DNA from: Planctomycetota bacterium
GTDB lineage: Bacteria; Planctomycetota; Phycisphaerae; WQYP01
Assembly: GCA_021798635.1 (NCBI GenBank)
Contig: JAJZGH010000007.1
Span: forward strand, 1-39,728
DNA: 39,728 nt
Direction: 5' to 3'
Position 1 is the first letter of the stretch; every line of letters begins with the position of its first letter. Under the pieces are notes generated by a model. The model ran no database searches and had not been told where the DNA came from. It saw only the letters and a program-made list of their open reading frames with translations. Position numbers and translations under genes: made by a program. Positions 17,678 through 37,058 of this stretch are shown one piece after another.

Positions 17678-20600
17678 ATGGCCGGAAACCTGGCGGAGGT
17701 ATTGCATCTCGCCGATGCACAGCGGCACGCACCGCAGGAAAAGGAAGTGTTGCGCCGCCATGGTCTGCAACTTGCGCAACAAGCACCGGACCTGGCTGGA
17801 CTGCTATGGCAATGGCTGGCGGATAATTCTCAAAGTGCCAAATACATTAACCGCATGACGGAAGCCGAGGGGCAGCTCCTCCGATCGCAAATCGCCGAAC
17901 ATTTCAGCATGTTATGCCTGAGGGATTACGACGGCACTCGAGCGGATAATCAGATTGCATTGGGCGCGTTGCCGCAACGATTGGCTTTAAACGAGCAATG
18001 GATCAGCGATACCTACAAAGCATTGGGTAAATTTCTGGAACCGGTTCTGGAAAAGTTTCCTTCCCAGGACCGGGAGTTGCTCCGCAGCGCCCTGCACAAA
18101 CGATTGCAACTGGATGAAGGGTGCGCCCGGATTGGCTACCGGCAGGCCCAGCAGGAGAGTCTCCAGCGGCATGAAGCCCTTTACGAGGCCGTCCGATTTG
18201 CCAATCAGCTGCTGACACACCACACGGACGCTGCGCTACTTTTGGAAAGTATTGTCGATACATTGGCGCATCACCTTAAAGTCCCGCTGCTGGGAATTGG
18301 ATTTATCAATCCGCGCACCGGCCACATTCAAATACGCGCAGCCGCCGGGCCGGCCAAGGCCTATTTCAGCAATATCACGTTGTCCGCTTCCGATGCGGTG
18401 CCGGAAGGGCGCGGGCCGGGCGCACGGGCCTTAAATTCCAATAATGTTCTGCAGGTTGATAATTTTGCCGAGGATCCAACCTTTGATCCCTGGAGAATTC
18501 AGGCCGGTCGATTTGGTCTGACGGGCAGTATTACCGCACCGTTTAAAACCCGGCGCGGACAACATGGATTTCTCAGTATGTACCGCACGGCCGAAATCCC
18601 GTTTCCCCAAGGGGCTGCCAAACTGCTGCATCAGTTGGCCCGGGACATCGGCGGCGCGCTGGACCGCATTCATGCGCAGAGAGAATTGCGGCGGCTACAT
18701 GCATACGAAGACGCACTGGAAGAAATTAACCAGATGCTGCTGAAAAATCCCGCGCCTGCGGCGATTTTCCGGCTGCTGGTGGAGACCATCGTAGCGCATA
18801 CCGACGCACCGATTGCCTACGTGCGGCTTATTGATCCGCGCACCGAGCTTGCCGAAATCGTCAGTCACTGCGGCAAAGCCGCCGAACGGATGCTGCAAAC
18901 CCAATGGTCGATAGATCTTAAGGGTCCTATGGGTAACGGCGTGACAGGCAAGGTGTATCGGACCGGCAGGGAATATGTCGTACCGGATGCCTTGGCACAC
19001 GCGGATTTTGCGATCTGGCGGGATTTTTTGAAGGGCCTGAAGCTGCGCGGGGCGGCAGGTTTTCCAATTGGGGAAAAAGATAAAAAGCCCGAAGCGGTAC
19101 TTTTTGTCGGAAGTCGACAGTCCAGCTACTTCAGCCGCCCTATTTTAAAACTTCTTAGGCGATTGGCGGGCAACGCTTCTCTGGCGCTTTCCAGCTACCG
19201 CCAGCGCGAACGCTTGGAATATTTAAGTATTCATGACTCGCTTACCGACTTGCCCAACCGCGGCTATTTTGAGCACGCCATTATGGAATCTCTTGGCCGG
19301 GCGGATCGGTATAATCGACAAATGGCGATTGGTATTCTGGATATTGACGGGTTTAAAGAAATTAACGATACGCTTGGACATGCCGCGGGGGATGATCTGT
19401 TGCGCGTGGTTTCCCATCGCCTGGCGACCACCATGCGAAAGGGCGATGTGGTAGCACGCATCGGCGGAGACGAATTCGGCCTGATTTTAAGCATGGAAGA
19501 CGGTGCTGATTTAGGCATAGCGGCCGAGCGGCTGCTGCAGGTGCTTGATGAGCCGGTGAATTGGCAGGGCCAGAATATCACCGTCAACGCGCGGATGGGA
19601 TTCACCGTTTATCCCATTGACAATTCGGATCGGGAAACATTGCTGCGGCACGCCGATGCAGTTTTATATTCCGCGAAAGAGGGGAACGTCCGTTTTGAAG
19701 TGTTCCAGAGCGCCATCGCCGAAAAAGTTGAACAGCGCTTTCATGCCCGACAGAATTTTCCCGCCGCCGTGAAAGATGGCAAAATACAATTTTTCCTCCA
19801 GCCACAGGCCAATATGCGGCACGGAAAACTTGACGGTCTGGAGATGCTGGCACGCTGGCGGGAGGGCGATAAATGGCTCTCCCCGGCCACCTTTATGCCG
19901 GTGATTGAAAATGATCCGGCTCTGATTTGTCTGCTGGGAAGTCTGGTGATCAAAGAGGCCGTGGGGCTGCGCCGGCGTTTGCTGGCGCAAGCACTGGATT
20001 TGCGCATCAGCGTGAATATCGGATCGCGGCATCTGCTGCATCCCAATTTTCTGAAGGATTTGGATGCGGCTTTAGCCGACTGTACGGATCCATCCTTTCT
20101 TACTCTGGAAATTACCGAAGTCACGGCCCTGACGGATATGCCCTTGGCAGTCCAGCGGCTTGAGGCGATTAACCTGCGTCACGTTTCCACCAGCCTCGAT
20201 GACTTTGGAACCGGCCATGCCTCGTTATTGTACGCCGCCTCCCTGCCGGTGAAGGAACTCAAGCTCGGACAGGAATTCATGCGTGGATTATTAGTCAAAA
20301 ACGCCCACGCCTCCGTGACTATGGCGGCCTTGCAATTTGCGGAACTTTCCAACACCCGCTTGATTGCCGAGGGAGTTGAGACGCCTGAGCAACTGGCGTA
20401 TTGGCTGCGACTCGGCGGTGAAAATATCCAGGGATATTTCTTAGCCCGCCCCATGGAAGAAGAGCGGTTTATGGCTTGGGCTGCGAGCTTAAAGCTCCCA
20501 CCGCAACCCTCGCCGCCGCGCTACGCCTCGCCGGACCTGCAACTGTTGTCGCGGCATGTATCGGTTACTGAGCGACTCATGAGGCTGCGTGAAATGCGGA

Positions 20601-20860
20601 CCGCTGGAATCCCCGATCCGTTGCCCATGGACGTTCCGCCGCTTGAGAGTTGCCCAACCGGACTGTGGATTCAGCAGCGCCGGGCTGCGTATGGCCATCT
20701 GCCGGAGTTTACAGCCATGGACAAAGCCCACCTGCAACGCCATGAGCTTTTAGCCCCCATTCATCATGACACGTCGCTGGAACTGCTTGAAGAATGGGGT
20801 CAAGTCATACAAACCCTGATCCTGGCCATCGACCAGGAATTGGTCCGCAGGACTTGTTGA
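17678..20860 (+). CDS. Multi-sensor diguanylate cyclase / phosphodiesterase (globin-like, GAF, GAF, GGDEF, EAL, CZB-like)
   Basis: This 1060-residue cytoplasmic protein is predicted to make and/or degrade c-di-GMP. Domain order: a globin-coupled-sensor-like helical region (about 15-135); GAF (about 175-325); GAF (about 345-505); GGDEF (about 520-680); EAL-like (about 700-940); and a C-terminal CZB-like zinc-binding domain (about 955-1055). Aligned by eye with DosC, the globin-like part has Pro99 where the haem-ligating His should be. GGDEF is intact (596-600) with a standard inhibitory I-site, RKGD (587-590). The EAL motif is EML (722-724). DDFGTG (841-846), K862 and AEGVET are kept, but the Asp two residues after K862 is Gly864. 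H960, C992, H1018 and H1022 match the spacing of the zinc ligands of DgcZ. There is no membrane segment. Which activity dominates cannot be told from sequence. Confidence 0.85.
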   Translation: MAGNLAEVLHLADAQRHAPQEKEVLRRHGLQLAQQAPDLAGLLWQWLADNSQSAKYINRMTEAEGQLLRSQIAEHFSMLCLRDYDGTRADNQIALGALPQRLALNEQWISDTYKALGKFLEPVLEKFPSQDRELLRSALHKRLQLDEGCARIGYRQAQQESLQRHEALYEAVRFANQLLTHHTDAALLLESIVDTLAHHLKVPLLGIGFINPRTGHIQIRAAAGPAKAYFSNITLSASDAVPEGRGPGARALNSNNVLQVDNFAEDPTFDPWRIQAGRFGLTGSITAPFKTRRGQHGFLSMYRTAEIPFPQGAAKLLHQLARDIGGALDRIHAQRELRRLHAYEDALEEINQMLLKNPAPAAIFRLLVETIVAHTDAPIAYVRLIDPRTELAEIVSHCGKAAERMLQTQWSIDLKGPMGNGVTGKVYRTGREYVVPDALAHADFAIWRDFLKGLKLRGAAGFPIGEKDKKPEAVLFVGSRQSSYFSRPILKLLRRLAGNASLALSSYRQRERLEYLSIHDSLTDLPNRGYFEHAIMESLGRADRYNRQMAIGILDIDGFKEINDTLGHAAGDDLLRVVSHRLATTMRKGDVVARIGGDEFGLILSMEDGADLGIAAERLLQVLDEPVNWQGQNITVNARMGFTVYPIDNSDRETLLRHADAVLYSAKEGNVRFEVFQSAIAEKVEQRFHARQNFPAAVKDGKIQFFLQPQANMRHGKLDGLEMLARWREGDKWLSPATFMPVIENDPALICLLGSLVIKEAVGLRRRLLAQALDLRISVNIGSRHLLHPNFLKDLDAALADCTDPSFLTLEITEVTALTDMPLAVQRLEAINLRHVSTSLDDFGTGHASLLYAASLPVKELKLGQEFMRGLLVKNAHASVTMAALQFAELSNTRLIAEGVETPEQLAYWLRLGGENIQGYFLARPMEEERFMAWAASLKLPPQPSPPRYASPDLQLLSRHVSVTERLMRLREMRTAGIPDPLPMDVPPLESCPTGLWIQQRRAAYGHLPEFTAMDKAHLQRHELLAPIHHDTSLELLEEWGQVIQTLILAIDQELVRRTC

Positions 20861-21177
20861 ATCTTACCGGCCGGTGCAGGCAAGATGTCTGCGTTACACG
20901 CTGGCACTTCCGCATCGGCTGATTTGGTGGGCAGGCTCTGGATTTCCAGCGAATAACTGTCATGGCCCCAAGCTTGCTTCTTGAGAAACGCCTTGAAAAT
21001 TTTCTTGTGCGTCAGATTTTCACATTGCCTGGCATCGCCGCCTTGCGGCGAATGATATTAGCGCGCCGCGTCTTCATGGAGTACGCATTGCTTGGGGCCA
21101 ACTTTTCAAATGTGCTATAAATGCGTACTATATGTCCTGGAATTGGTCTGTGAACCACAGAATGTGGAGAATGCTGT
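20861..21177. other. Intergenic region between the c-di-GMP enzyme gene and nuoI
   Basis: No gene is supported in this 317-base stretch. TCGCCGC (21035-21041) and GCGGCGA (21045-21051) form a perfect 7-base hairpin with a CTT loop, but without a T-tract. The end of the region holds the nuoI promoter candidate. A minus-strand stretch around 20900-21020 has a protein-like composition but no family I recognise and no start signal. Confidence 0.4.
21092..21121 (+). promoter_or_regulatory. Candidate promoter of the nuoI-like gene
   Basis: TTGGGG (21092-21097) and TATAAA (21116-21121) are 18 bases apart. Transcription would start near 21128, giving a 50-base leader with GGAG 8 bases before the ATG at 21178. 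Confidence 0.4.
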
Positions 21178-21717
21178 ATGAAGCTTGAAGATGTCATCGA
21201 ATTGCACCCGCCGGAACTTAAAGCTTCCGAAAATATCTTTTTACCCGCCGTGCTTTCCGGCTTGGGAAGCACCCTGGTGCATCTGTTTAGATCAGTCAGC
21301 GGTGATGTACGCACCATGCAGTACCCCGAAGAACGCCGGGAAGATAAACCCGTTCTGGAGCAAGGCATGGATGTGCAGCGCTATCGCGGGGTACATCGGC
21401 TTAACCGCGATGAGCAAAATCGGGTTAAATGCGTGGCCTGTTACATGTGTGCTACAGCCTGCCCGGCCCATTGCATTCATATTGTCGGAGATGCCGCCCC
21501 GGATTCCTGGCCGGACCGCGAAAAATATCCCATTAAATTTGATATTGATGAGTTGCGCTGCATCTATTGCGGGATGTGTGAGGAAGCCTGCCCGGTCGAT
21601 GCCATTGAATTGACGTATGAATACGACATTGTCGGCCTGACGCGCGAAGAGATGGTTTTTGACAAACAAAAACTCCTGGCGATTTACGACCAGACCATTA
21701 AACGCAAGCCAATGTAA
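21178..21717 (+). CDS. nuoI: NuoI-like 2[4Fe-4S] subunit of NADH-quinone oxidoreductase
   Basis: This 179-residue protein fits complex I subunit I, the peripheral-arm ferredoxin that passes electrons toward the quinone site. Two four-cysteine clusters are present: C85, C88, C91 followed by C95-P, and C128, C131, C134 followed by C138-P. Between them are the usual AHCIHIVGD and KYPIKFDIDELRCIYC segments. An N-terminal stretch (about 20-55) is amphipathic and could lie on the membrane. The C-terminal LTYEYDI and REEMVFDK match NuoI. The other nuo genes are not adjacent and the gene has its own promoter candidate. It is therefore either a displaced nuoI, as in genomes with split complex I operons, or a related ferredoxin of another complex. 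GGAG upstream supports the ATG at 21178. Confidence 0.85.
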   Translation: MKLEDVIELHPPELKASENIFLPAVLSGLGSTLVHLFRSVSGDVRTMQYPEERREDKPVLEQGMDVQRYRGVHRLNRDEQNRVKCVACYMCATACPAHCIHIVGDAAPDSWPDREKYPIKFDIDELRCIYCGMCEEACPVDAIELTYEYDIVGLTREEMVFDKQKLLAIYDQTIKRKPM

Positions 21718-32615: not shown

Positions 32616-35600
32616 TCAATGCCCAAACAGGCTGTGCAGATTATTGATGATGCCGGGCGCGTTTTTAAGCGTATTGCCCAGATCATTGCCGATATTCTTC
32701 AGCGGTTTAGCGCTTAAATGCAGTTGCGGCTTGCTGGTGGTGCCGTCAATACTTAACGGGATGGGAAGGGTAATCCCGGCCCCGGTGATATTTACATCCT
32801 GATGCAGGCTTTGATCCAAACCCACCCATCCGGAGAAGTCCATTCCAAAACTGACCAGCAGCACCTGGAGATTCTGATAATAGATTTTCCCCTTTTTGAG
32901 ATCAAATGTTGTCGGACGAATGCCGCTGTCTTTCATCACCATGCCTGATCCGCCGTTGCTTATCAGCGGCCCCATACTGCTTCCGATCATGGAAAACAGC
33001 GGAGAATCAGAGGAAATATGCGTAGCGCTGACGGTGCCGGTGAGCGTCCCTGTTTTTTTAAGCTGTGCGAATGCCAGCGGCAGTGTCGCCTTCTGCAACT
33101 GCAGATTGACTAATCCGGAAAGCTGCACGCCCCCGGAACCGTTTCCACCGCCCCACGCCAACGGCAGGAAATTCAGCAAGCTTCCACCCATGGCTTCATT
33201 CATGTGTACCTGATTCACCAGCGACAGGCTGTGGGTAAGAATATATTCCGGCGAAGCGAGATTAAAATCAATATGTCCGCCCGTGTTGAGTGTCCCTTTA
33301 TTGGCAGGTATCGCGCTGGGGATTAATTGCAGAATACCGCTGGATTGAACAAATGGAATTTTGCCGGGCCCAAGGGTCAGGCCGTCGATGGCAATTTTAT
33401 CAAATCCCAACGACGTCCGGCCGATGACCAGCTTACGCAACTGGCGCAGACCCTGGTCTGCCGTAAGTTGACCGGTAATTTGCAATTTCATGGTGTGCTG
33501 GCCCGCCATGGTCAACCCGGCGGGCAGCATGGGGCCAAGCAACGCCTGGATTCGCGCCAGATCGTAGCTGAACTCGCCCTGAATGTTTTCCGGTGATTTA
33601 TACGACCATGCTATCACGCTGCCTTTGTTAAGTTGAATGGTATTACCGCCGGAACCTGTCACGGCGTGCTCTGATACGGTGCAGTCATTCAGACATGTAA
33701 ATGTCGTAGCGACTGGATTAAGCAAACCGGAAACCGCCAACGCCAGATTATCCGGCGGCAGATTGGCACTGGCACCGGGAATAACGAGTTGGTAATTGTT
33801 CACGCCGCCGCGAATCGTGAGGCTGACCGAGGAACTTGGAGGTGTTGCTGATCCTGCAGTCTCCGCCGCCCCTTTAAGCGCCAAAGCCCCTTGAAGTTTT
33901 GCGCCGCTCTTCAGTTTTCCCAATGCTTCCAATAAAGGCGCAAATTTCTTGAGATCGGCATGGAGGCTGAACGCCGGAACTGTTGCCGTCATGGATGCAC
34001 CGGTTTGCAACGTCATAGGCTTTGAAACACTTAAATCCATGGCTCCATCGGACGTGTTCATTGCCAGAGAGGAAATATTTATATGTGTCGCTTTGCCCAG
34101 CAACGCCTGACATGCCATATCCAGGGTTAATTTTGGTTCCATAAATTCTGCGGTAGAGGCCTTGGGTGCGGTATTACGGAAGCTTAGATTATCCATTTCC
34201 AGATGCAATTTGGAAATCTTCAAGGAACCCGGCTTATATGCTGCCGTAATGACCGAATTCGTGACCGTTCCGCCAAGATCATCGTGTGCCGGCACCGGAG
34301 AAAACATGGCGACCATCTTCATCACAGCAGGCAGATTGATGGCGGCAATATGGACTTGCGCCAAAGGCACAGCCCACCCAGCGGAAATTTTTTGTACATC
34401 CACGTTGCCGCGGGGAATGCTGATTTCCCCACTTTGAATACTAAAGGTGCTGTTAGCACCGGTAATGGCACCGTGCGGCGAAAGCAGTGTTCCAGCGGAA
34501 TGGATCTTCACCGCAGGCTCGGTGATCACCGGCCGGCCCTGTCCCAGCCCCAGGGCCACGCTGTTAAGCGCCACGCTGAGATGATAGGCAATTTTCTGCG
34601 CGAATATATCCGCCGTCGTCGCGTTGACATCCAACGTGCCGGCCACACTGCGGCCCTTAAGTGCGACAAAAGGAGCCGCCTCCTGCACCAGATTGGCCAG
34701 CACCGCCTGCATGCTTAAAGCGTATGATCCATGGTTTTGTCCGGTCACCAGAACATTTAACTGCGGCGTACTTTCCGGCCTGCCGGTTGCGGTTGCCGCC
34801 TGATCCAACATACCTTTAACCAGATTCCACTTAGCGCTGGAGCGCTGAAATTGAGCCCCCAGCACCACCGGATTGATGATAAACGGCGTTTTTTTCCATG
34901 TGCCGCGCAAATCAGTCAGCGACAGCGTCTCCCGGCCCGTCGATTGCTTGCCCGTGCTGGTTAAATCACCCTGTAGACTCATCGTGCCGTGCCGCAACCG
35001 CAGCGCCAGTTTTCCCAGGCCCAGCGTGTTACGAAAGCTTGATGCGAACCATCCAAGATTGCAATAGCTGCTTACATGAAGAGCCGATGCACCCCAGTTA
35101 GCTTGATTATTCTGGATGGCTTTAAGTTCCGCCAAGGTGGCATTACCGGATAAGAGCATACGCAGATTCGTTGATTGCAGCCCCACGGAAGCAACATGAA
35201 ACCGATTTCCTTTCCATGAAATATCCAACGGCAGCGTCACGGTGCCCATTTGCGGCCGGTCAGACTTCAACAACGTGCCGCCTATCGCGCAGTTGATAAT
35301 GGTCAAAGGTCCGGAAATTTTCCCTATGCCCGCCTCAGGGGCGTTGACAGAAATTTTCCCGTTCACCACGCCATGAAATACGATAGACTTACTGGTGCGC
35401 GGTAAAATCTGGTCAATGGCGGTCAGATTCAAATGACTCACCAGCAATTCAAGTTTGCCGGTAAGCTGATTCAGGGGGAGAATTTTCCCATTTTTTATGG
35501 CGGTTAAATCCGCTACCAGGGAAAAGTCCGCCGGCTTGGCGTTTGCCTGGGCAATGTGCAGATGAACTGCGGCCACAATCGGCTTGCCGAGGGTGTTAAA

Positions 35601-37058
35601 GGCCACCGTGCCGCTGGCCGCAGCGGAGCCATTCGGTGCGCCGTTGGCCTGTGTCCAGTGCAGCGGCAGAATGCTGATTTTCACCGCACTGGCCAGCGGC
35701 GGCAGCGATCCGGATAGCGTCTGGGCATGGGCGTGTGCGGGCTGCCCCAAACGAATCGCCATCGCCACCGTGGTTTGTCCACCCATAAAATGTAGACCAC
35801 TGGGCAACGTGATCACATGCGGCAACGCTGCAAGCGTTTGCGCCAGTGGAGCCGACGCGGCAACATTGAATACCGCGGGCTGATCAGAAACTTTCTGACC
35901 ATGCAGCACCGCCAGCACCGTGGCAATCGAGCCATGGCCGGTGACGGCTGCCCCGCCCAGCGCGGTCTGAATGCCCAGGGCACTAATCTGATAGTTGCCG
36001 CCCCGCCAGGACGCATGAACCGGAATCTGTACCGTTCCAAGCTGCGGAGAATCGCCTTTTAACATCGCGCCAGAGAGTGCGGCATGATTCACCAGAATGT
36101 GACCATGAACCGCACCCGTCCCCACCGTAGGAATATTGGCCGCCAAGGCCAGGGTCAATTCACCACTGGGCGAGAGCTTTACCCCGGCCATGCTTAATAC
36201 CGGTTCCAAGGCCACGAGATTGAGCTGCTGTACGCCTGCGGTGAACGTGCCGGTCATGTCGGCGACGGGCATGATTTGACCATTGGCCAAGGCATTGATG
36301 GCAGCCGCCAGATGAATTTTACTGCGGGCCTGATTTCCCAGCCCGGCAGCGGTATCCAACTGCACATCGACCGGTTTATTGTCTATGGTATCCAGTACTA
36401 CGACCAGCCGTGTATGCTCCGCGTGGAAAGGCTTTAAATTCGGTGCGGTAAAAGACGCCTGTGCCAGATTCAATGTCAGTGTCGTGTTGATTTTCGGCAG
36501 CGTGGTGGCAGGACGGGCGGTTGGAGTGGTTCGCGGTGCGGCCGTCTGCGTGGCCGCCGGAGATACCGCCGCTGGGCGTGGATTGGCCAGCGCCTGCATG
36601 ATATTAAGCTGATGGTTGCTGTCTTGATTAAGCGTGAGCGTCTTAATATCAATGGCGATATTTCCCAGATTATGCCAGTTGGATAATAAGTTCAGAATGC
36701 TGCGGTGCGTGAGGATATTGACATCCCCGACTACCACATCACCATTGGGGTCCTTAAGCATGACCCGATTGAATTTTGCCGGCGTAAACCATCCTAATGA
36801 CATGCGCCCGATTTCCACGCTGCCGCTGATGCGGGAGTTAACTTGCGATTCAATGAACCGCACCCCCGGCCCCGTGCACAACATGCTGGGGATCGCCAAA
36901 ATCAGTAGTAGCAGCACTACCAGCACTATTCCCACGACCAGAGGCCAGCGCCGCCGCCGGCGGACGACTGCGTTTCCCCCTGCGTTGGGGGCTTTGGTTG
37001 CTTCCCCGCCGGAGTTACTTGCTGCGCCGGAATTCATGGATGGTTTATTATCAGTCAT
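32616..37058 (-). CDS. Very large AsmA-like inner-membrane-anchored protein
   Basis: The 1480-residue protein has a cytoplasmic, Asn/Ser/Gly-rich start, a basic RRRRRW stretch, one TM helix (about 38-60) and a very long periplasmic region made of repeating beta-strand patterns. The segment just after the TM (FIESQVNSRISGSVEIGRMS, in AsmA style: a helix, then GSVEIGRMSLGWF) and the C-terminus (ITLPIPLSIDGTTSKPQLHL) are characteristic of the AsmA/YhdP/TamB-like superfamily, whose members are thought to form bridge-like grooves moving phospholipids between inner and outer membranes. Length is similar to or larger than the big family members. A Pro/Ala/Thr linker lies at about 150-190. No clear Shine-Dalgarno precedes the ATG. 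Together with a TolC-like gene it implies a real outer membrane. The exact cargo is unknown. Confidence 0.75.
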   Translation of the reverse strand: MTDNKPSMNSGAASNSGGEATKAPNAGGNAVVRRRRRWPLVVGIVLVVLLLLILAIPSMLCTGPGVRFIESQVNSRISGSVEIGRMSLGWFTPAKFNRVMLKDPNGDVVVGDVNILTHRSILNLLSNWHNLGNIAIDIKTLTLNQDSNHQLNIMQALANPRPAAVSPAATQTAAPRTTPTARPATTLPKINTTLTLNLAQASFTAPNLKPFHAEHTRLVVVLDTIDNKPVDVQLDTAAGLGNQARSKIHLAAAINALANGQIMPVADMTGTFTAGVQQLNLVALEPVLSMAGVKLSPSGELTLALAANIPTVGTGAVHGHILVNHAALSGAMLKGDSPQLGTVQIPVHASWRGGNYQISALGIQTALGGAAVTGHGSIATVLAVLHGQKVSDQPAVFNVAASAPLAQTLAALPHVITLPSGLHFMGGQTTVAMAIRLGQPAHAHAQTLSGSLPPLASAVKISILPLHWTQANGAPNGSAAASGTVAFNTLGKPIVAAVHLHIAQANAKPADFSLVADLTAIKNGKILPLNQLTGKLELLVSHLNLTAIDQILPRTSKSIVFHGVVNGKISVNAPEAGIGKISGPLTIINCAIGGTLLKSDRPQMGTVTLPLDISWKGNRFHVASVGLQSTNLRMLLSGNATLAELKAIQNNQANWGASALHVSSYCNLGWFASSFRNTLGLGKLALRLRHGTMSLQGDLTSTGKQSTGRETLSLTDLRGTWKKTPFIINPVVLGAQFQRSSAKWNLVKGMLDQAATATGRPESTPQLNVLVTGQNHGSYALSMQAVLANLVQEAAPFVALKGRSVAGTLDVNATTADIFAQKIAYHLSVALNSVALGLGQGRPVITEPAVKIHSAGTLLSPHGAITGANSTFSIQSGEISIPRGNVDVQKISAGWAVPLAQVHIAAINLPAVMKMVAMFSPVPAHDDLGGTVTNSVITAAYKPGSLKISKLHLEMDNLSFRNTAPKASTAEFMEPKLTLDMACQALLGKATHINISSLAMNTSDGAMDLSVSKPMTLQTGASMTATVPAFSLHADLKKFAPLLEALGKLKSGAKLQGALALKGAAETAGSATPPSSSVSLTIRGGVNNYQLVIPGASANLPPDNLALAVSGLLNPVATTFTCLNDCTVSEHAVTGSGGNTIQLNKGSVIAWSYKSPENIQGEFSYDLARIQALLGPMLPAGLTMAGQHTMKLQITGQLTADQGLRQLRKLVIGRTSLGFDKIAIDGLTLGPGKIPFVQSSGILQLIPSAIPANKGTLNTGGHIDFNLASPEYILTHSLSLVNQVHMNEAMGGSLLNFLPLAWGGGNGSGGVQLSGLVNLQLQKATLPLAFAQLKKTGTLTGTVSATHISSDSPLFSMIGSSMGPLISNGGSGMVMKDSGIRPTTFDLKKGKIYYQNLQVLLVSFGMDFSGWVGLDQSLHQDVNITGAGITLPIPLSIDGTTSKPQLHLSAKPLKNIGNDLGNTLKNAPGIINNLHSLFGH

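Follow-up and report, generated by a model that had tools for sequence, protein, structure and literature searches.

What would a c-di-GMP enzyme do with a globin without its haem ligand at one end and a zinc-type domain at the other? This question is raised by a single gene in a 39,728-nucleotide stretch of DNA from a Planctomycetota bacterium (contig JAJZGH010000007.1; hereafter, the window), to which G001 is the nearest genome. To our knowledge, the routing of separate inputs to the GGDEF and EAL domains of multi-sensor c-di-GMP enzymes is largely open. From the kind of bins we would guess at acidic mine water as the habitat, and nothing below depends on this. Pfam analysis of the full-length protein returned protoglobin (27.0 bits, cut-off 25), two GAF_2 matches, GGDEF and EAL. 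Together with profile comparisons, a predicted structure and alignments, this bears out much of the original prediction: the 1060-residue open reading frame is present, and the sensor-globin fold, two GAF domains, a GGDEF domain with I-site and an EAL domain are all supported. The domain layout is as follows.

17678..20860, plus strand: whole gene, 1060 amino acids, encoding globin fold, GAF, GAF, GGDEF, EAL and CZB-like parts (Pfam; relatives P0001-P0007)
17678..18157, plus strand: sensor-globin-fold domain without haem ligand, residues 1-160
18200..18673, plus strand: first GAF domain, spanning roughly residues 175-332 (GAF_2 scores 35.1 bits when the segment is scanned by itself)
18758..19189, plus strand: second GAF domain, residues 361-504 (best GAF_2 stretch in Pfam)
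19229..19681, plus strand: GGDEF domain, residues 518-668 (Pfam PF00990, 142 bits)
19751..20452, plus strand: EAL domain, residues 692-925 (Pfam PF00563, 146 bits)
20510..20851, plus strand: CZB-like four-helix domain, about residues 945-1058 (own CZB profile, HHalign, AlphaFold model with pLDDT 85)

The window protein is a real multi-sensor enzyme, and its architecture has already been described. The combination of globin and CZB, initially thought to be undescribed, is published for Acidithiobacillia: excerpts of a 2019 paper report the Protoglobin-GGDEF-EAL-CZB protein AFE_1712, conserved through the class, and, for 387 GGDEF-EAL proteins, count 80 partner domains of the protoglobin type and 62 of the CZB type (PMC6416229). 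According to excerpts of two further papers, the c-di-GMP proteins of A. caldus include both protoglobin and CZB domains (PMC4331095, 2015), and a 2021 survey names globin as one domain found in CZB proteins, a picture which the planctomycete case would extend (PMC8262984). AFE_1712 was compared by its description, and the sequence that we read was the A. caldus plasmid protein WP_004872567. The Acidithiobacillia type shares the domain order of the window protein (N-terminal sensor globin, GGDEF, EAL, C-terminal CZB) but belongs to a different phylum, and identity to WP_004872567 is about 37% in GGDEF-EAL. In contrast to this type, the window protein carries two Pfam-recognised GAF domains. 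Further, it has Pro99 and Trp44, whereas WP_004872567 has retained H99, Y44 and the His of its CZB. New relative to the published layout is a reciprocal sister paralogue in the same genus. In a literature search of which little was aimed at such pairs, we found no description of reciprocal paralogues.

The sister paralogue (clade B) has the same layout as the window protein and its closest relatives (clade A), to which it is 46-49% identical. Among the eight genomes of the genus, six hold clade A, five clade B and four both (G003, G005, G006 and G008, with two of these homologues cut by contig ends). G004 holds a clade B copy, G001 (94% complete) clade A alone and G002 neither. A further subfamily, C, is about 41-42% identical and occurs in two genomes of another genus. 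In a tree of GGDEF-EAL sequences, A, B and C together were recovered with 100/100 support, and the individual clades with 100/99 (A), 99/99 (B) and 100/100 (C), while the order of the three was weakly supported (61/45). The A. caldus protein, the sole outside example with both sites, was also weakly placed (61/58). Searching 5.8 billion proteins with either terminal region of the window protein returned an identical set of seven clusters, one of them near-identical to the window, and the N-terminus of the paralogue returned seven others; these searches reach only relatives sharing short exact words, that is, close ones. The N-terminus of subfamily C (L019, L020 and L023 in genomes G013 and G021) has no protoglobin match.

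The sensor-globin fold at the N-terminus was found by Pfam, by profile comparison with PDB chains and in the predicted model. Two codons mark the haem pocket.

17807..17809, plus strand: Trp44 codon, distal (B10) Tyr column; Trp in 7/7 clade A, Tyr in 7/7 clade B and in A. caldus
17972..17974, plus strand: Pro99 codon, proximal-His (F8) column; Pro or Ala in 7/7 clade A, His in 7/7 clade B and in A. caldus

Replacement of the proximal His by Pro99, as originally predicted, was confirmed, and none of the seven clade A proteins has the proximal His of globin-coupled sensors. All seven also have Trp in place of the distal Tyr, the residue which hydrogen-bonds O2 in these sensors (PMC7033309). In a direct, albeit weak, alignment to the Geobacter sensor globin 2w31 (E 0.29), Pro99 fell on the proximal-His column, and in a combined clade A and B profile the residue-99 column matched the His of five PDB chains among the matches listed (2w31, 1or4, 8h17, 7o0i and 5ohe; E 3e-11 to 0.03). 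The alignment position of residue 99 is fixed because the sister paralogue bears His there. No conserved replacement His was found at residues 95-103 of clade A, where residue 100 is Gln, Glu or His (His in 1/7) and no other His occurs. Five clade A proteins (all but P0002 and P0003) were scanned for protoglobin and scored 22.6-36.3 bits; of six clade B proteins scanned (all but P0012), five scored 77-89 bits and P0015 63.6 bits. Loss of the haem site in the clade A globin is well supported by these alignments. The domain thus shares fold and N-terminal position with globin-coupled sensors such as DosC/DgcO, HemAT, GsGCS and AfGcHK but not their proximal His and distal Tyr.

Between the window and G007, dN for the clade A globin was 0.169 and dS 0.77 (dN/dS ca. 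0.22), compared with dN/dS values of 0.10 for the GAF domains and 0.09 for the EAL domain. Over the clade A pairs, the globin value ran from about 0.13 to 0.45 (maximum for G005 vs G003), making it the loosest or nearly the loosest domain. The clade A globin remains under purifying selection and is probably kept as a folded, haem-less module. RsbR of the B. subtilis stressosome likewise employs a globin fold without haem in signalling; its output is a stressosome protein, whereas that of the window is a c-di-GMP enzyme. His75 (17900-17902 in the window) is invariant in clades A and B, present in A. caldus and off the haem-ligand column. His28 is invariant in clade A (7/7) and found in 3/7 clade B proteins.

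The GGDEF domain carries the diguanylate cyclase signature at residues 596-600 as well as an I-site:

19436..19447, plus strand: I-site RKGD, residues 587-590; RxxD in 14/14 aligned clade A and B proteins

In case of the EAL domain, E722, N780, E811, E814, D841, D842, K862, E901 and Q918, which we take from RocR to be the catalytic and metal positions, are shared by the 14 proteins of clades A and B. The Asp of the LKxD motif, which we assume to weigh on the assignment of phosphodiesterase activity, is absent: it is replaced by Gly864 in 7/7 clade A proteins and by Gly in 6/7 of clade B, with P0010 having Asp. Describing the domain as a variant EAL was fair, as EML replaces EAL and LKLG the usual LKID while the other catalytic positions named above are intact. 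We file the window protein as an EAL-domain protein with putative phosphodiesterase activity.

The C-terminus holds four candidate zinc ligands.

20555..20557, plus strand: His960 codon, candidate zinc ligand 1; His in 7/7 clade A, Gln in 7/7 clade B, His in A. caldus
20651..20653, plus strand: Cys992 codon, candidate zinc ligand 2; Cys in 14/14 of clades A and B and in A. caldus
20729..20743, plus strand: His1018 and His1022 codons, candidate zinc ligands 3 and 4; both His in 14/14 and in A. caldus

Residues and spacings (32, 26 and 4) are as initially described, and they come close to H22, C52, H79 and H83 of E. coli K-12 DgcZ, spaced 30, 27 and 4. All four are invariant in 8/8 aligned sequences (the window and seven relatives, one near-identical to it), and shuffling the 125-residue C-terminus 20,000 times produced a loosened form of the motif 59 times. 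Clade A therefore presents the 3His/1Cys set of CZB domains, with a less certain register at H960. Pfam gave no CZB match for the full-length window protein or for P0004, P0006, P0013 and P0014 among the members scanned; the cut-out window C-terminus scored 16.6 bits against a cut-off of 29.4, every scanned member of the window family fell below that cut-off, and the A. caldus protein likewise stayed just under it at 27.2 bits. PF13682 matched in 37 of 392 planctomycete genomes (35 above cut-off) and in none of the 28 of the window's family, indicating that the Pfam scan misses the domain there. Three contigs (G381:C121, G135:C14 and G341:C31) carry two CZB matches each, within about 1.5 kb of one another.

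Our own CZB profile, with the window's family excluded, combined the DgcZ, A. caldus and Aeromonas segments with 22 from planctomycetes (24 loci less L062 and L063). All seven clade A tails scored 13.4-17.4 bits, that of the window 14.4, while 800 shuffled tails did not exceed 8.5. Eleven clade B tails scored 6.1-16.2 bits, overlapping clade A and with four below 8.5, and both clade C tails scored 16.3. HHalign against CZB yielded P values of 1.8e-6 for clades A and B combined, 1.3e-4 for A alone and 7.5e-5 for B; the best of 30 column-shuffled clade A profiles reached 0.014. Both methods, with their shuffle controls, thus point to kinship with known CZB domains. The HHalign alignment spans C992, H1018 and H1022 and places H960 three residues off the first CZB His, so that ligand 1 rests on the A. 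caldus alignment and on spacing. Pairwise, the window tail resembled that of DgcZ weakly (28 of 2000 shuffles as good) and those of A. caldus and Aeromonas with 2 of 2000 shuffles each as good. The predicted structure is a four-helix bundle, and no CZB entry was among the Foldseek or VIA matches listed. Taken together, the predicted CZB-like C-terminus with a full 3His/1Cys set holds up on profile kinship and invariant residues, and we regard the CZB assignment as fairly supported. With DgcZ and other CZB regulators the window shares the near-equal 3His/1Cys spacing, a C..G.W motif and a c-di-GMP enzyme as output. It differs in that the CZB of DgcZ is N-terminal to GGDEF, whereas that of the window is C-terminal beside EAL and divergent in sequence. 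It also lacks the Trp three residues past the first His, which excerpts of the 2021 survey give as a feature of the cyclase group (PMC8262984).

The two clades are reciprocal at three positions: clade A has Pro or Ala at 99, W44 and H960, and clade B has H99, Y44 and Q960, in seven of seven proteins each (P0001 and P0008 left out as near-duplicates). Further clade B genome fragments agree at the readable residues, and all of H99, Y44 and H960 occur in the A. caldus protein. Each residue change may be a single event, and the seven of seven are thus not seven independent observations. In clade C, neither genome has H99, and H960 is found in one and Gln in the other (the Gln was read from a second, separate contig taken as the same gene). 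The haem-His and zinc-His changes are therefore not strictly linked.

Conservation is crossed as well. We took mean within-clade distances per domain and formed A/B ratios normalised to the whole protein, with 95% intervals from a bootstrap which samples columns, not lineages. The ratios were 1.76 (1.47-2.15) for the globin, 1.55 (1.20-2.08) for GGDEF, 0.65 (0.50-0.82) for EAL and 0.59 (0.43-0.77) for CZB, all four intervals excluding 1. Values were similar without P0012 or without P0015. Normalisation to the GAF domains gave the same direction, with the EAL interval reaching 1.00, or 1.01 without P0015. In terms of relative constraint, clade A is hence tighter in CZB and EAL and clade B in globin and GGDEF.

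We propose that the window protein is one of two old paralogues descended from a dual-sensor ancestor, with a haem-less, zinc-type clade A and an O2-gated clade B. Taken as a whole, we see this explanation as evenly poised between right and wrong. An ancestor with both sites would have been duplicated and the copies would have split its inputs. In clade A, the globin would have lost both haem-pocket residues tested and been retained for dimerisation or for sensing something besides O2. Haem-less stressosome globins offer an analogue for such an emptied globin holding a dimer or sensing otherwise. The CZB domain would have retained its complete 3His/1Cys site beside the well conserved EAL domain. 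Zn2+ on H960, C992, H1018 and H1022 would lock the helices of the CZB domain; if the zinc left or C992 were oxidised, their packing would shift, and with it EAL output and, via the dimer, GGDEF output. The GAF domains may add control by a nucleotide or other ligand. The resulting clade A enzyme would be zinc/oxidant-gated and phosphodiesterase-leaning. In DgcZ, zinc inhibits and HOCl acting on the Cys relieves this inhibition, according to excerpts of two papers (PMC8262984, PMC8846402); by analogy, CZB would be a zinc/oxidant switch on the dimer, here beside EAL. Clade B, with its haem residues intact and its first zinc His replaced by Gln, should in turn be O2-gated and cyclase-leaning. As the EAL catalytic residues listed above are intact in clade B, catalytic specialisation is only a rate argument, and the catalytic direction of both clades is a guess from domain rates. 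The complete reciprocal split, with B as an O2-gated cyclase whose zinc site no longer works and A as a zinc/oxidant-gated phosphodiesterase whose empty globin serves as scaffold or new sensor, is tentative and to our minds more doubtful than probable.

Other explanations have to be weighed against this. The C-terminal bundle may be structural or metal-free in vivo, in which case the enzyme would answer only to its GAF domains and globin and CZB would be relics. The sub-threshold CZB scores and the missing CZB structure among the matches listed fit such a view, as does the persistence of C992, H1018 and H1022 in clade B without H960. We consider it unlikely, since none of the four ligands varies within clade A and the CZB domain shows stronger relative conservation there than in B. 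It is quite improbable that the clade A globin instead binds haem via His75 or His28 and acts as an unusually coordinated gas or redox sensor. The invariance of H75 in A and B, its presence in A. caldus and the invariance of H28 in clade A would suit this idea, although H28 occurs in only 3/7 clade B proteins. H75, however, is common to the H99-bearing paralogues and was thus not gained upon loss of H99, and it aligns with a HemAT His outside the H99 column. Further, the distal Tyr was lost together with H99, and protoglobin scores among the proteins scanned are lower in clade A than in clade B (63.6-89 bits).

Clades A and B may also have entered the genus by separate horizontal transfers with their residues already in place, leaving no post-duplication division of labour. 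Protoglobin is found in 7 of the 28 genomes of the family, all seven in this one genus, and Acidithiobacillus has the same layout, both of which speak for separate arrival. The window gene is accompanied by genes for a squalene-hopene cyclase, a NuoI-like ferredoxin, an HDIG protein, YbeY and a CorC-like protein. Such neighbours are conserved on either side of the gene in L001 and L025, on the upstream side in L004 and L005 and on the downstream side in L006 and L007. Several thus persist in five of the six clade A loci whose flanks were examined besides G001 (L001 and L004-L007). Around the clade A gene of L003, on the other hand, the NuoI-like gene alone is retained within 6 kb per flank. 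Separate arrival is also at odds with the tree, in which A, B and C group together at 100/100 to the exclusion of A. caldus and the remaining GGDEF-EAL proteins, and with the terminal-region searches, within their reach of close relatives, returning only A, B and C members. We judge it rather unlikely.

If our reading of two paralogues from a dual-sensor ancestor holds, each paralogue isolates one sensor and one catalytic bias, amounting to a natural domain-by-domain experiment in which the A. caldus type represents the state with both sensors. Should the reciprocal split be true, the pair would set c-di-GMP oppositely from O2 and from the zinc/oxidant state. Clade A provides the case of a globin that lacks its haem ligand and stays under selection within a c-di-GMP enzyme, and the A/B pair lends itself to studying how sensors share out their jobs after duplication.

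A few further observations were made around the gene. A 1480-residue open reading frame (32616-37058, minus strand) was matched neither by Pfam at 1e-5 nor by PADLOC at 1e-3. The NuoI-like ferredoxin (21178-21717, plus strand) is 96-98% identical in four other loci, compared with 76-85% for the globin-CZB enzyme. In the near-identical G001, about 2.1 kb separates the enzyme gene from the NuoI-like gene (L025, 9834-11921), and this spacer holds two minus-strand open stretches of 423 amino acids (by eye an ATPase-like P-loop protein) and 206 amino acids. In the window, 239 bases (20855-21093) do not align with the G001 spacer, and the protein ends in different residues. The spacer after the enzyme gene looks like a variable insertion spot.
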